This document shows, piece by piece, positions 6,917-23,998 of a stretch of 64,000 bases of DNA. Made by a program: the position numbers and the translations under genes. The DNA comes from Betaproteobacteria bacterium (GTDB lineage: Bacteria; Pseudomonadota; Gammaproteobacteria; Burkholderiales; SG8-41), in the NCBI GenBank assembly GCA_028292435.1, contig JAQGMI010000162.1:1-64000 (forward strand), read 5' to 3'. How positions within the stretch are numbered: the stretch's first letter is position 1; every line of letters begins with the position of its first letter. Below the pieces are notes generated by a model. The model had not been told where the DNA came from. It was given only the letters and a program-made list of their open reading frames with translations, and did not search any database.

Positions 6917-9637
<2,721 letters not shown>

Positions 9638-17561: not shown

Positions 17562-18965
17562 TCACGCCTGCCGGCCCGCCAACATTGCTGGCACCGTGCC
17601 TATCGAGCCCGCGCCCATCGTCAACACCACGTCGCCATCGCGCAGCGCCGGCTCGAGCGCCGAGGGGAATTCGGTTACCTGCTCCACAAATATCGGTTCG
17701 ACCTTGCCTTGCACGCGCACGGCGCGCGCAAGCGCGCGGCCGTCCGCGGCGACGATCGGCGATTCGCCGGCCGCATACACCTCGGTCAGCAACAGCACAT
17801 CGACCGTGCTCAGCACATGCGCAAAATCTTCGAAGCAGTCGCGCGTGCGCGTGTAGCGATGCGGTTGAAACGCCAGCACGAGGCGCCGACCCGGAAAAGC
17901 GCCGCGCGCTGCCGCGAGCGTCGCCGCCATTTCCGTCGGGTGATGACCGTAATCGTCGATTAAGGTGTAATGCCCGCCTTGCTTGAGCGCGATCTCACCG
18001 AAGCGTTCAAAACGGCGGCCAACGCCTTTGAAGTCGGCGAGTGCGCGCACGATCGCCGCATCATCCGCACCCACTTCCATGCCGACCGCAATCGCCGCGA
18101 GCGCATTGAGTACGTTGTGCGCGCCGGCAAGGTTCAGCACGACCGTCAGTTCGGGCAGTTTTTTGCCGCGCCCGTCGCTGCGCTGCACTTTGAAATGCAT
18201 GCGGCCTGCATCGGGCCTGACGTCGACCGCGCGCACCTGCGCGGCTTCGGACAGCCCGTAGGTGGTGACCGGTTTGGTAATCGCCGGCATGATTTCGCGC
18301 ACATTCGGGTCGTCGACGCACAACACCGCGGATCCGTAAAAGGGCAAGCGCTGCACGAAGTCCAGAAATGCCTGGCGCAGCCGGCCGAAATAATGACCGT
18401 ATGTTTCCATGTGGTCGGCGTCGATATTGGTAACGACGGCGAGCACCGGCGCGAGATAAAGGAACGACGCATCCGACTCGTCGGCTTCGGCGACGATGAA
18501 CTCGCCGGTGCCGAGCTTCGCGTGCGAACCCGCCGCCTCGAGGCGGCCGCCAATCACGAAGGTCGGGTCCATGCCCGCTTCCCCCAGCACGCTCGCGACG
18601 AGACTCGTCGTCGTGGTCTTGCCGTGGGTGCCCGCAACCGCGATGCCCTGCTTGAGGCGCATCAGTTCGGCCAGCATCATTGCGCGCGGCACCACCGGGA
18701 TTTTGTGCGCCCGCGCCGCGACGACTTCTGGATTGTCTTCCTTGACCGCGCTTGAGATCACAACGGCGTCCGCCGCCGCGATGTTCTCTGCGGCATGGCC
18801 ATGCATGACATCGGCGCCGAGCTTTTTCAGGCGGCGAGTTACCGCGTTGTCGTTGATGTCCGAGCCGCTCACGCCGAAGCCGAGATTGACGAGCACCTCA
18901 GCGATGCCGCTCATGCCGCTACCGCCTATGCCGACGAAGTGAACGCGTTTGACTTTGTACTTCAT
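17562..18965 (-). CDS. murC: UDP-N-acetylmuramate--L-alanine ligase MurC
   Basis: ATP-dependent ligase adding L-Ala to UDP-MurNAc. It is 467 aa from ATG 18965, which reads [20 protein letters not shown], the standard N-terminus. The ATP loop [10 protein letters not shown], the DESDASFL segment and [10 protein letters not shown] are intact. The start has no strong ribosome site; instead its ATG overlaps the TGA of a 53-codon frame that carries a diverged copy of the murC N-terminus (18962-19123), so translation is probably coupled through that frame from murG. Confidence 0.97.
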
Positions 18966-19123
18966 TGAGTGGCGCCCAACTCTGTTCGTGCAATGCTGCC
19001 GGCGGCCGACTCCGCTTGCGGCCGGTCGCATCCCGCCGCACTAAATGCGGCAGGACCCTGCTTCCTGCTCACGGAGGTTCCGCCAATCCCTACGAAGTAA
19101 ATGCGTTTGACTTGGTATTTCAT
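18962..19123 (-). pseudogene. Diverged second copy of the murC 5' end, in a 53-codon frame
   Basis: Between murG and murC the minus strand encodes [20 protein letters not shown], clearly the murC N-terminus ([20 protein letters not shown]), with about 25% base differences over 60 bases (19064-19123). After that it no longer resembles murC. The remaining 33 codons contain a palindrome (GCCGCATTTAGTGCGGC near 19035-19051). Its ATG overlaps the murG TGA, and its TGA overlaps the murC ATG, so the frame links both genes by stop/start overlaps. It is best read as the remnant start of a second murC, possibly still translated. Confidence 0.8.
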
Positions 19124-20199: not shown

Positions 20200-21374
20200 A
20201 TCTTCACCCCGCGCAATAGTTGGCGATTTTCCCAGTCGACTCGCAGGAGCACTGCCAGCGCGCAGCAATTGGCCGCGATGCCGCTGCCGCCGAATGACAA
20301 GAGCGGCAATGTGAGCCCCTTCGTCGGCAGCACCCCCATGTTCACGCCCATGTTGATGATCGCCTGCACGCCAAGCCACAGGCCGATGCCCTGGGCGACA
20401 AGCGCGGGAAACGCGCGGTCGAGCGATGCGGCCTGACGGCCGATCGCGAACGCGCGCACGATGATGACCGCGAACAATCCAATCACCACGGCGACGCCGG
20501 CGAAGCCGAGTTCTTCGGCAATGACGGCGAGCAGAAAGTCAGTGTGCGCTTCGGGCAGGTAAAACAATTTCTCGACACTCGCGCCCAGGCCGACGCCCAG
20601 CCATTCGCCGCGGCCGAACGCGATGAGCGCATGCGACAGCTGGTAACCTTTGCCGAATGGATCGGCCCACGGATCCATGAAGCCGACGACTCGCTGCATC
20701 CGGTATGGCGACAGCCAGATCAACAACACGAAACCGACGATCAGCAACACGATCAAGCCCGCGAACGGTTTCCAGTTGACGCCGCCGAGAAACAAAATTC
20801 CCATCGCAATCACAGTAATCACCGCGAACGCGCCAAAATCGGGCTCACGCAGCAGGAGCCCGCCGACCAGCAGCATTACAATGAAAAGCGGCAGGAATCC
20901 CTTGGTCAGGCTGTGCATGTGCGCCGACTTGCGCACGGTGTAGTCGGCGGCATACAGCACCGCGAACAATTTCATGAGTTCCGAGGGCTGGAGGTTGAAT
21001 ACGAACAGTGACAGCCAACGCTGGCTGCCGTTGACTTCGCGGCCGATGCCCGGAATGAGAACCAGCACCAGCAAGCCGGCGCCCAGCAGAAACAGAAATG
21101 GCGCCGCTTTCTGCCACGCCCGCGTCGGCAATTGAAATGCAATCGTCGCCATGCCGAGACTCAACGCGAGAAACACGCTGTGCCGCATCAGGTAATACAT
21201 CGGCTGCTGACCGGTCATGCGGCTCGCTTCGGCAATCGCGATCGACGACGAGTAGACCATCACGAGACCCAGCGCGAGGAGCGCAACGGCACTCCAGGCG
21301 AGCGCCACGTCATATTCGGCGGGTGGCGGACGGCTTTTCAGGTCCGCATAGAACATCGCGTTCATTTCAGCCAC
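20196..21374 (-). CDS. ftsW: Septal peptidoglycan glycosyltransferase FtsW
   Basis: SEDS-family lipid II polymerase of the divisome, working with FtsI. It is 392 aa with about ten transmembrane helices. Typical SEDS segments are visible: [74 protein letters not shown], and the C-terminal [10 protein letters not shown]. The start overlaps the end of murD by 8 bases. Confidence 0.97.
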
Positions 21375-22746
21375 GGGTCACCTCGTTTCTGACCGCGGCG
21401 GCGAATACGTCGCCGCGATGCCCGTAGTTTTTGAACATGTCGTAGCTGGCGCATGCCGGTGACAGCAGCACCGCATCGCCATTGCGGCTGGCGGCACGCG
21501 CCATGCGCACCGCGTCATTCATATCGGCCGCGCGCTCGACTTTGACGCCGGTGTCTTCGATGGCGCGCGCAATTTGTTCGCGATCTCGGCCGATCAAAAT
21601 CACCGCGCGCGCGCGGCGCCTGACCGGCTCGCGCAAGGGAACGAAGTCCTGACCTTTGCCATCGCCGCCCGCGATCAACACGACCGGCTGCGTGAAGCCA
21701 AGCAGCGCCGCGACCGTGGAACCGACGTTGGTGCCCTTCGAGTCGTCGTAGTAAGTAACGCCGTCGATTTCGGCGACTTTGGCAACGCGATGTGGCAGGC
21801 CCTTGAAGGCGCGCAGCGCGTCGACCACGGCTTTGTCGTCGACGCCAATCGCATGACACAGCGCGCTCGCGGCGAGTGCGTTCGCGGCATTGTGCAAGCC
21901 CGCGACCGGCAGTTCGGCGACCGGCATCAGCGCGCGATTGCCTCGCGCGAGCGAGAGTTGACCGCCATGCGAGGCGAGTCCCCATTCGCGGTCGCCCGTT
22001 GGCGCATTCGTGCCGAAACTCCAGATATCACGGCCGGACTTCACCATCGCCACACTGCGCGCATCTTCACGGTTGATGATCTGTGCGCCACTGCCGATAA
22101 ACACATTTGCCTTCACGGCCGCGTAGTCATCGATACCGTCGTAACGGTCGAGATGATCTTCGGAGACATTGAGCATCGTCGCTGCGTCGGCGTTAAGGCT
22201 GGTAGTCGTCTCCAATTGGAAACTCGACAGTTCGAGCACGAACACATCGGGCACGTCACGGCCGTTTTCGATTTCAGTCAATGCGTCGAGTACAGGCGTA
22301 CCGATATTGCCGGCGACAACCGTATCGCAGCCGGCCGCGGCGCATATGTCGCCGGCCATTTGCGTAACCGTGCTTTTGCCATTGGTGCCGGTAATCGCGA
22401 CGACTTTTGGCAGGCGAGGAACAGCGTGCGGCAGCGCCTGCGCAAAGAGTTCGACGTCGCCGACGAAGGGCACGCCGTGCGCGCTCGCGGCTGCAATCGC
22501 CGGCGTGCGGCGATCGATGCCGGGACTGATGGCGATCATGTCGGCTGCGCGTAAAACGGCCGCCTGCAGTTCGCCGCAAACGAGTGCCACCGCCGGCAAT
22601 TCACGGCGCAACGTGGCCGCATGCGGCGGATCGACGCGCGTGTCGGCGACAGAAACGACGGCGCCATGACGCGCGAGCCAGCGCGTCGTCGAGAGCCCCG
22701 TGTCTCCAAGTCCAAGCACCAAGACTTTTTTACCCCTTACATCCAT
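21367..22746 (-). CDS. murD: UDP-N-acetylmuramoyl-L-alanine--D-glutamate ligase MurD
   Basis: Mur ligase adding D-Glu. It is 459 aa. The N-terminal Rossmann domain is [21 protein letters not shown], the ATP loop is [15 protein letters not shown], then [48 protein letters not shown] and the C-terminal [17 protein letters not shown]. It is preceded by the extra copy of the mraY 3' end rather than directly by mraY. Confidence 0.97.
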
Positions 22747-22768: not shown

Positions 22769-22909
22769 CTAGCGCAACTTCAATGTCGACAAGCCGACTA
22801 ACACCAGCATCATCGTGATGATCCAGAAGCCGGAATTGGTTTCTGGTGTCGGCTTACGCGCTTCGCGCATTACCCTCCCCCAAACCATTCCTAGGTGCGC
22901 TTCTTCCAT
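22769..22909 (-). pseudogene. Second copy of the mraY 3' end, in a 46-codon frame
   Basis: Two bases after the mraY TAA comes ACG-less spacing and an ATG that opens a 46-codon frame. Its last 19 codons (22769-22828 with the stop) encode [19 protein letters not shown], identical to the C-terminus of mraY. At DNA level 10 of these 57 bases differ, all at synonymous positions, and the stop is TAG instead of TAA. The first 27 codons (MEEAHLGMVWGRVMREARKP, then TPETNSG) match nothing I recognise. If translated, it would be a one-helix membrane peptide. murD begins 22 bases later. Confidence 0.8.
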
Positions 22910-22912
22910 CGT

Positions 22913-23998
22913 TTACCTTAACTTTAGTGTCGACAAACCTACGAGCACCAGCATCATCGTAATGATCCAGAAGCGCACGACGACCTGGTTTTCCTTCCAG
23001 CCCTTCAATTCATAGTGGTGATGCAGCGGCGCCATGCGAAAGATCCGCTTGCCGGTCAATTTGAACGACGCGACCTGCAGCACGACCGACAGCGTTTCGA
23101 CGACAAATACGCCGCCCATAATGAAGAGCACGATTTCCTGCCGCACGATCACGGCGATGGTGCCGAGCGCGGCACCGAGTGCCAGCGCGCCGACGTCGCC
23201 CATAAAAACTTCGGCCGGATAGGCGTTGAACCAGAGAAATGCCAGGCCCGCGCCCGCAAGCGCGCCGCAAAAGACCGTGAGTTCGCCCGCGCCCGGAATG
23301 TGCGGAAAGACGAGATATTTGGCGAACACCGCGTTACCGGCGACATATGCGAACACCCCGAGCGCGCTCGCGATCATCACCGTCGGCATGATCGCGAGAC
23401 CGTCGAGGCCGTCGGTCAGATTTACGGCGTTGCTGGTGCCGACGATCACGAGATAAGTCAGCGTGATAAAGCCGAAGACGCCTAATGGATAACCGACATT
23501 CTTGAAGAACGGCACGATGAACTCGGTTTGCGCCGGCAGGTTGGTGCTGAACGCAATGATGCAGGCAACGCCGAGCCCGACCACCGATTGCCAGAAGAAT
23601 TTGGCGCGCGCCGACAATCCTTTCGGGTTGCGATGCACGACCTTGCGATAGTCGTCAATCCAGCCGATGATGCCGAAGCCGACAGTCGCCGCAACGACCA
23701 CCCACACAAAGCGGTTTTCGAGATCGGCCCACAGCAACGTCGTCACAATGACCGATACCAGGATCAACGCACCGCCCATCGTCGGCGTGCCGGCTTTGGG
23801 CAAATGTGTCTGCGGACCGTCGTCGCGCACGGATTGGCCGATCTTGTATGACGTCAGCCGCCGGATCATCAACGGCCCCACCATGAATGTCATCAGCAGC
23901 GCGGTAAGGCATGCAAGCACGGCTCTGAGCGTGATGTAGCTGAACACGTTGAACGCGCGGATGTCCTTGGCGAGCCACTGGGCGAGTTCAAGCAGCAT
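22913..23998 (-). CDS. mraY: Phospho-N-acetylmuramoyl-pentapeptide transferase MraY
   Basis: Integral membrane enzyme that makes lipid I from UDP-MurNAc-pentapeptide and undecaprenyl phosphate. It is 361 aa with about ten helices. Conserved loops: GTPTMGG, the catalytic region [50 protein letters not shown], and the HHHYELKGW motif near the end. Its stop adjoins a small frame that repeats its own C-terminus. Its start is adjacent to the murF stop. Confidence 0.97.

Follow-up and report, generated by a model that had tools for sequence, protein, structure and literature searches.

Some integrative elements enter the 3' ends of genes or tRNA genes and carry a replacement end with them. The Beta-proteobacterial repeat element, or BRE (Hot et al. 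2011, PMC3110155), is described as a G+C-rich, chromosomally dispersed sequence of ~75-91 bp, which is found singly or in tandem and in variable copy number, sometimes overlaps gene ends, and has traits of a mobile element. According to a review (PMC2229807), the Rickettsia palindromic elements (RPEs) are small palindromic sequences found in coding regions and RNA genes and tolerated by the host, and the YPAL/RU-2 element of Yersinia is 168 bp long, not A+T-rich, and has internal inverted repeats and target duplications of variable size.

A small element at the 3' end of mraY resembles each of these in part. It is found in the window, the 64,000-nucleotide stretch of contig JAQGMI010000162.1 (a Betaproteobacteria bacterium) that was analysed. 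As with integrative elements, the host gene appears to gain a new end from the element while the old end is displaced; unlike them, the element is ~150 bp in size, with no integrase found and no att-type site shown. It shares with the BRE its betaproteobacterial hosts, G+C-richness, similar length, dispersal, occurrence as single or tandem units in variable copy number, occasional overlap with gene ends and traits of a mobile element, whereas section 14 of the BRE paper (PMC3110155) makes no mention of a target motif, duplicated gene ends, recoded tails or a covarying fold like those of the element in the window. Like the RPEs, it is a small palindromic insertion tolerated in genes and RNA genes, but an RPE adds residues by in-frame fusion, whereas here the protein sequence is kept and the end of the gene is replaced. 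YPAL/RU-2 is similar in not being A+T-rich, in its internal inverted repeats and in the variable size of its target duplications, and differs in that these are given in PMC2229807 as 3-26 bp and mainly intergenic, compared to roughly 30-112 bases here, often extending to a gene boundary. Intrastrand triplex repeats (PMC4666352) have a different motif and were set aside as a candidate. Among the open-licence papers searched, none was found to describe the duplication of gene ends by a repeat of this sort.

The second MraY tail in the window is likely to be the original end of the gene, displaced by a small hairpin-forming repeat, found in many Betaproteobacteria, that supplied an end encoding the same residues with different codons. 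The right end of the element's core (..AGCC) adjoins a copy of the target, called T-down here, and the matching stretch upstream, in the intact gene, is called T-up. All features of the locus lie on the minus strand:

22913..23998 (-), mraY, 361 codons with stop TAA, from the list of open reading frames; Pfam PF00953 and PF10555
22913..22992 (-), T-up, the functional mraY end from the motif G-AAAAC to the stop; a foreign-looking (recoded) piece with a drop in identity at its edge
22881..22905 (-), left arm, a partial inverted copy of the start of T, seen as an inverted repeat
22834..22893 (-), structured core matched by the covariance model R1; the second hairpin is absent from this copy
22769..22844 (-), T-down, the putative displaced mraY 3' end, from the right junction CC-AGAAAC to TAG; 47 of 57 bases identical to T-up, 0 amino-acid changes
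22769..22909 (-), the 46-codon frame, a core-encoded leader plus T-down, from the list of open reading frames
21367..22746 (-), murD, named by its place in the cluster and by tblastn hits in relatives, not by a family scan

The 46-codon frame runs from an ATG at 22909, which begins 3 nt past the mraY stop, to a TAG at 22769, and its last 19 residues are the last 19 of MraY. All 10 base differences between the two tails are synonymous, so that the second tail with purely synonymous differences in its own coupled frame, as reported in the initial annotation, is confirmed; a repeat search returned the pair as a 55-nt direct repeat with 87% identity, 144 bases apart. The outer part of the left arm mirrors T-up (GTGCGCTTCT) and its inner part mirrors T-down (AAACCA.TTCC). 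The core scores 29.2 bits against R1 (E 1.1e-5), a match that is not independent evidence because this core is among the 18 sequences from which the model was built. An assembly artefact is an unlikely source of the second tail because the same arrangement recurs in other genomes.

The initial annotation had also proposed a search of relatives for a 27-codon leader. The leader does recur, not as a unique sequence, but as the conserved structured spacer of a dispersed element. Eighteen such spacers, 84-114 nt long and taken from 17 loci, can be aligned between genera and between families, with a hand-drawn fold consisting of an outer stem, GGC/GCC stems, a TAAC-GTTA hairpin and often a second hairpin. 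In this fold 83.6% of cells are paired, compared to 26-46% when the structure is slid, a control biased in favour of the fold because the structure was drawn from folds of the same sequences; for the second hairpin the paired fraction is only 66.7%. Covariation exceeds that in shuffled alignments for pairs changed on both sides (12 versus 7.5) and for double-changed cells (29 versus 11.1), and less so for further pair types (27 versus 23.2, with 26 of 500 shuffles reaching 27), the shuffles being only a guide for spacers that are related. Unguided RNAalifold gave a weaker consensus for the 18 spacers (-4.92 kcal/mol, 14 pairs). A search of seven loci against Rfam returned two hits (E 0.13 and 0.57), both below the gathering thresholds. 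A self-splicing intron, whose excision from motif to junction would rejoin the gene, was rejected on the same search, in which no group I or group II family matched, and the hairpin does not appear to fit the core-site consensus of integron attC sites.

R1, the covariance model of the 18 spacers, has 75 positions, and its hits are 48 to 94 nt in length, most of them 57-94, as compared to 75-91 bp for the BRE. Matches are found in 47 of 74 genomes of the family at E 0.001, in 23 of 150 relatives of a Pigmentiphaga genome (that genome included) at E 1e-6, in all 10 named genomes that were chosen as carriers, and in 2 of 369 genomes of the class, both from the order of the window. An exact core pattern occurs in at least 117 stretches of named genomes; among the 80 pattern loci listed, 71 bear betaproteobacterial names and the other nine are given as Proteobacteria (5), Gammaproteobacteria (3) and an uncultured bacterium (1). 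Viral contigs held no match to the exact pattern, and one 102-base spacer (from G014), used as the sole query, had no match among 72,556 plasmid and 50,697 phage records. Tandem units, known for the BRE with few bases between copies, are found at L083, L250, L251 and L324, and in G051 and G083; G834 has four copies at a 94-base spacing, and elsewhere many copies lie 100-160 bases apart. Judged by its hosts, length and tandem behaviour, the element is probably the published BRE.

The targets are varied. The best R1 match in the genome of the window (61.6 bits) is not the copy at mraY but one behind an aminotransferase gene (PF00155, for which "alaC-like" is our own label), where a second copy of the gene end follows the element in a frame of 50 codons, and the compared codons differ synonymously only. 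Other targets include rpoA and, from reading of translations, ftsW-like and sucD-like gene ends. Translated ends resembling FtsW (QLMRG.., RVARG.., RIAKGMPI; read by eye) were seen at L127, L128/L267, L137, L148, L157, L173, L174, L178, L183 and L309, which suggests that the 3' end of ftsW is a repeated place of insertion and that the dcw cluster may hold several such sites. Transfer RNA genes are also targets: at 10 of 11 loci, ARAGORN identified an intact gene for tRNA-Ser, -Phe or -Leu next to the interrupted one; L246 resembles these sites, but no intact tRNA was found by ARAGORN in the stretch examined. In partial tRNA copies at L250, L251, L129, L136, L150, L160, L168, L193, L203 and L108 the element, in some cases in tandem, is located in the anticodon loop. 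One R1 hit in the genome of the window (G000:C68, 27.2 bits) has no duplication and overlaps reading frames, and was treated as a chance match.

The insertion sites have a common motif. T-up begins with AAAAC or AAAAT at 21 of 37 sites and is preceded by G or C at 31 of 37; the search pattern itself contained the AAAA with which T-down begins, and this AAAA proves nothing for the pattern sites, whereas T-up was unconstrained, and the same motif is found at sites located by R1 without the pattern. Direct repeats flank the core, at a score of 18 or more, in 49 of the 75 usable pattern sites (83 in total), and the other 26 have no duplication at this threshold; among the 75 are three sites at mraY and three further places that had already turned up in genomes of the family. 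Scores for 200 swapped pairs had a 95th percentile of 17 and peaked at 41, a peak that probably arises from some sites being at the same gene. Where T overlaps a gene end it usually extends to the stop codon or some bases past it (112 bases aligned at L335), and in antisense insertions (L116, L124) it reaches the start codon. The left arm is similar to the reverse-complemented start of T, matching its own T-up at a mean of 8.6 of 14 positions, T-down at 7.4 and other sites at 5.4. As a universal mirror of the target the arm holds only partly, with 12 of 37 sites above the 99% level of swapped sites, and at least 6 of 8 matches in 20 of 77 sites, compared to 2.9% of swapped ones.

At mraY itself, a search of 60 relatives with MraY found extra tail matches close behind the gene in 8 genomes, the window included, and among 30 mraY-murD gaps that were examined a second tail was present in 5 (the window included, and one behind unknown bases) and in none of the other 25. 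With an alignment of six small frames as the query, it was detected in 11 of 74 family genomes, again including the window, or in 12 with G031, where unknown bases intervene; no mraY-tail copy was found in the other 62, 6 of which gave no match at all. Of 399 genomes sampled from the order, 9 gave a match with E no higher than 1e-15, and 6 of these belong to other families, while among 369 genomes of the class only that of the window was matched. Within the family and in other families of the order, the second tails stand behind the structured spacer and before murD; in G083 the tail copies lie at a contig start adjoining murD, with mraY on another contig. Two sister genomes, G011 and G005 (MraY 96% and 95% identical to that of the window), have the site without the insertion, with a single tail, TAG, 24 nt and murD. 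In the window, T-down is followed by TAG, by 22 nt resembling this 24-nt junction, and by murD, so that the second tail appears to carry the ancestral junction with murD. Other repeat-like intergenic sequences (GGAGTGAGGAGTGAGG..CTCACGCC and similar) fill the mraY-murD gap in the absence of the element at L007, L011, L012, L023, L025 and L030, and at L034/L053 (G029:C343) the match to mraY is split between different frames, with residues 1-221 in one and 262-361 in another, reflecting a deletion or an assembly error.

One question regarding this arrangement is which of the two tails is native. Fifteen element-bearing mraY genes (L055 was too short and L054 was not included) were compared to the nearest of 45 element-free genes. 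Over the last 60 bases before the motif the mean identity is 0.890 (native control 0.888), whereas T-up and T-down reach 0.805 and 0.850, respectively, over the final 57 bases (native control 0.874); T-up is less similar than T-down to the element-free relatives in 11 of the 15 genes, more similar in 1 and tied in 3. In means over same-genus natives, which exist for 14 genomes, T-down is closer in 8, T-up in 4, and 2 are tied. AGG or AGA serves as the last arginine codon in 10 of 17 T-up tails, 3 of 17 T-down tails and 7 of 45 native ones (Fisher p 0.0013, T-up versus native), and the difference in GC3 between T-up and T-down is not significant (p 0.09). In the same-genus and arginine comparisons, as in those of pair divergence and of frames below, the G083 pair (L054) consists of two copies within a tandem array, mraY being elsewhere. 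The initial annotation had entertained a downstream tail that was imported, and on average the opposite holds: the tail inside mraY is foreign-looking and the downstream one native-looking. For the gene of the window alone the evidence on direction is weaker and not decisive, with an identity to L004 of 0.87 in the last 60 bases before the motif and 0.75 after it, matches to G011 of 48/57 for T-down and 43/57 for T-up, matches to G005 of 47/57 for both, and same-genus means of 46.9 for T-down versus 45.3 for T-up.

The average edge at the motif and the closer relationship of T-down to native tails make a displaced original end the best reading of the downstream copy. The simplest interpretation of these comparisons, and the most likely, takes T-down for a native end that was displaced recently and gives T-up a separate history. 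A small dispersed repeat would have come to sit inside the 3' end of mraY at the motif G-AAAAC; as seen now, the element consists of a substitute mraY tail with its own stop (T-up), the short inverted arm and the structured core. The original end would follow directly as T-down, restarting near the motif and keeping its own stop and its sister-like junction with murD. The mraY gene is intact, with what would be a new tail, and the 46-codon frame would be a by-product of the core and the displaced tail. The substitute tail would have come with the element from another lineage, in an event focused on the site and not in an exchange of long gene segments. The substitute tails share lineage-specific residues (ISMM, LIGL, LFGL) with the host's own tail, and the donors must therefore be close relatives; yet they resemble relatives less than native tails do, and both points count against simple import. 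Synonymous change of an unusual kind in the upstream tail after a duplication is an alternative to a foreign source. Overall, the element behaves as an insertion-like, dispersed structured element and the tail in the window is best read as its scar.

Ordinary homologous recombination is the alternative that survives best, although it is rather unlikely. Under it, the element and the upstream tail would have arrived together on a piece of a relative's mraY, with one crossover in the short tail, and it accounts for two separately selected tails and for their shared residues without a dedicated mobile mechanism. However, the body of mraY before the motif is as close to relatives as that of native genes, such that both crossovers would need to fall at the tail every time.

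A selected one-helix membrane peptide translated after mraY, for instance a mimic of MraY's last helix acting on MraY, was among the suggestions of the initial annotation. In favour of such a peptide, at 15 of 17 mraY sites a frame that runs through T-down opens with a start codon close to the upstream stop, compared to 3.6 expected from shuffled spacers (14 versus 1.7 with ATG starts only), the 17 cases not being independent because several spacers are closely related, and the leader residues are alike among several genomes. Many of the open frames start by an ATGA overlap at the upstream stop. A wider automatic list of 55 rows, some of them not gene ends and with at least two places entered twice (L105 = L146, L144 = L268), has 27 open frames against 15.1 expected; by eye, T-down keeps the last residues of the gene in 37 of the 55, all 27 open rows among them. 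Tail residues are, however, also kept where the frame is disconnected (13 synonymous and 0 nonsynonymous differences at L063, 11 and 0 at L088), and residue conservation is therefore no evidence for a peptide. Furthermore, the same architecture yields unrelated tails at other, unrelated genes, the 62 family genomes noted above gave no copy, T-down has lost residues or its stop in several genomes, and the leader is one reading frame of the conserved core DNA. These observations do not support a function of the peptide: the claim of a selected peptide is weakened to the point of being quite improbable, and a selected microprotein was abandoned as the main reading on the conservation of disconnected tails and the unrelated tails elsewhere. 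Since the frame is open more often than by chance, its translation may still matter. Under the preferred reading, in which T-down is the displaced end of mraY, an open frame coupled to mraY would have been retained for carrying ribosomes across the insertion, and such frames perhaps relay them to the next gene, murD.

The divergence of the two tails also bears on their origin. In 23 pairs (17 mraY tails and 6 from alaC) there are 167 synonymous and 16 nonsynonymous differences, where ~151 nonsynonymous ones would be expected for a neutral copy, in agreement with the earlier proposal that the two tails diverged as separately selected coding sequences; by eye, 14 of the 16 nonsynonymous changes are in T-down, in keeping with decay of a displaced end. 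Some pairs are identical or nearly so (57/57 in G096; 55/57 in G064, G163 and G406; 74/74 bases at L112), as expected for recent events. A local tandem duplication of the mraY end in the lineage of the window, with both copies then under selection, could draw on the existence of tandem units (G051, G083, L324) and on the lineage-specific residues common to both tails, but a neutral spare copy would have accumulated the nonsynonymous changes that are missing here, the tails are separated by a conserved core that is also found at unrelated genes, and on average the departure from relatives is confined to T-up and has its edge at the motif. Such a duplication is highly improbable.

A second duplication in the window involves the head of murC, present at 18909-18965 and 19067-19123 around a 101-base spacer. 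This spacer is a second type of conserved element (..GAGCAGGxAGCAGGG..GGGATGCGACCGGCCGC..) that differs from the mraY spacer, and the upstream copy of the murC head keeps the ATGA overlap with murG. The murC-type spacer is found in 14 of 74 family genomes, the window included, ten of which have a second murC head before the real one (G000, which is that of the window, G024, G081, G026, G020, G070, G066, G064, G078 and G095), while G085 has the spacer without a visible head copy. Seven family genomes have the murC-head duplication with no mraY copy found (G024, G081, G026, G020, G066, G078, G095), and seven have the mraY copy with no murC-type spacer found (G014, G019, G029, G035, G093, G096, G032); because the seams occur separately in other genomes, they represent separate events. 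The initial model of one imported block spanning the mraY tail through the murC head, to which the partial duplicates bracketing murD-ftsW-murG lend some appeal, is extremely improbable and was rejected on the separable seams with their different spacers and the sister-like murD junction behind T-down.

No transposase or integrase could be tied to the element. The units examined are too small to contain an integrase gene, and the one neighbouring gene scanned, which two cores in opposite orientation 2.7 kb apart enclose at L244 (G015:C3:61319 and 64085), is a Y1 transposase gene (1824-2528, PF01797). Another R1 site, L109 (G084:C119:8435), has a Y1 transposase gene nearby at 8605-8931. An origin from REP/RAYT elements was also considered: a search for PF01797 gave no match in five draft genomes that all carry the element (G000, G014, G083, G086 and G089), but two R1 sites adjoin Y1 genes, and such an origin may still apply. 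Near-identical dispersed copies were seen in G943 (L317-L323) and G966 (L327-L334), with the core inside larger small elements bounded by terminal inverted repeats, GGGAAACGCTGA..TCAGCGTTTCCC or AACAGGCCGTTGAAAAACG..TTTTTCAACGGCCTG; L323 ends in the second type, and L333 departs from this pattern. Most of the copies examined ride inside these other inverted-repeat elements, and they were rejected as proof that the core is mobile on its own.

A broader reading, tentative and held at somewhat below even chances, is that of a widespread family of self-rescuing, structured insertions in Betaproteobacteria. These would target an S-AAAA-Y motif in genes and tRNAs and either carry in or generate a synonymous substitute for the severed part of the gene, and an open relay frame with the displaced native tail as its end would maintain the coupling of the operon. 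If true, such insertions would be a natural counterpart of "recoded rescue", a mobile-element strategy of which no description was found. Small repeats are usually taken to persist in the gaps between genes, whereas this element lies inside tRNA copies and genes including mraY and rpoA, where it survives because the cut-off gene end exists twice. If the replacement travels with the element, this would explain how a parasite can live in compact, essential operons. Furthermore, near-identical "tail peptides" that have been annotated can be scars of this kind, and the origin of synonymous divergence between neighbouring copies becomes testable.
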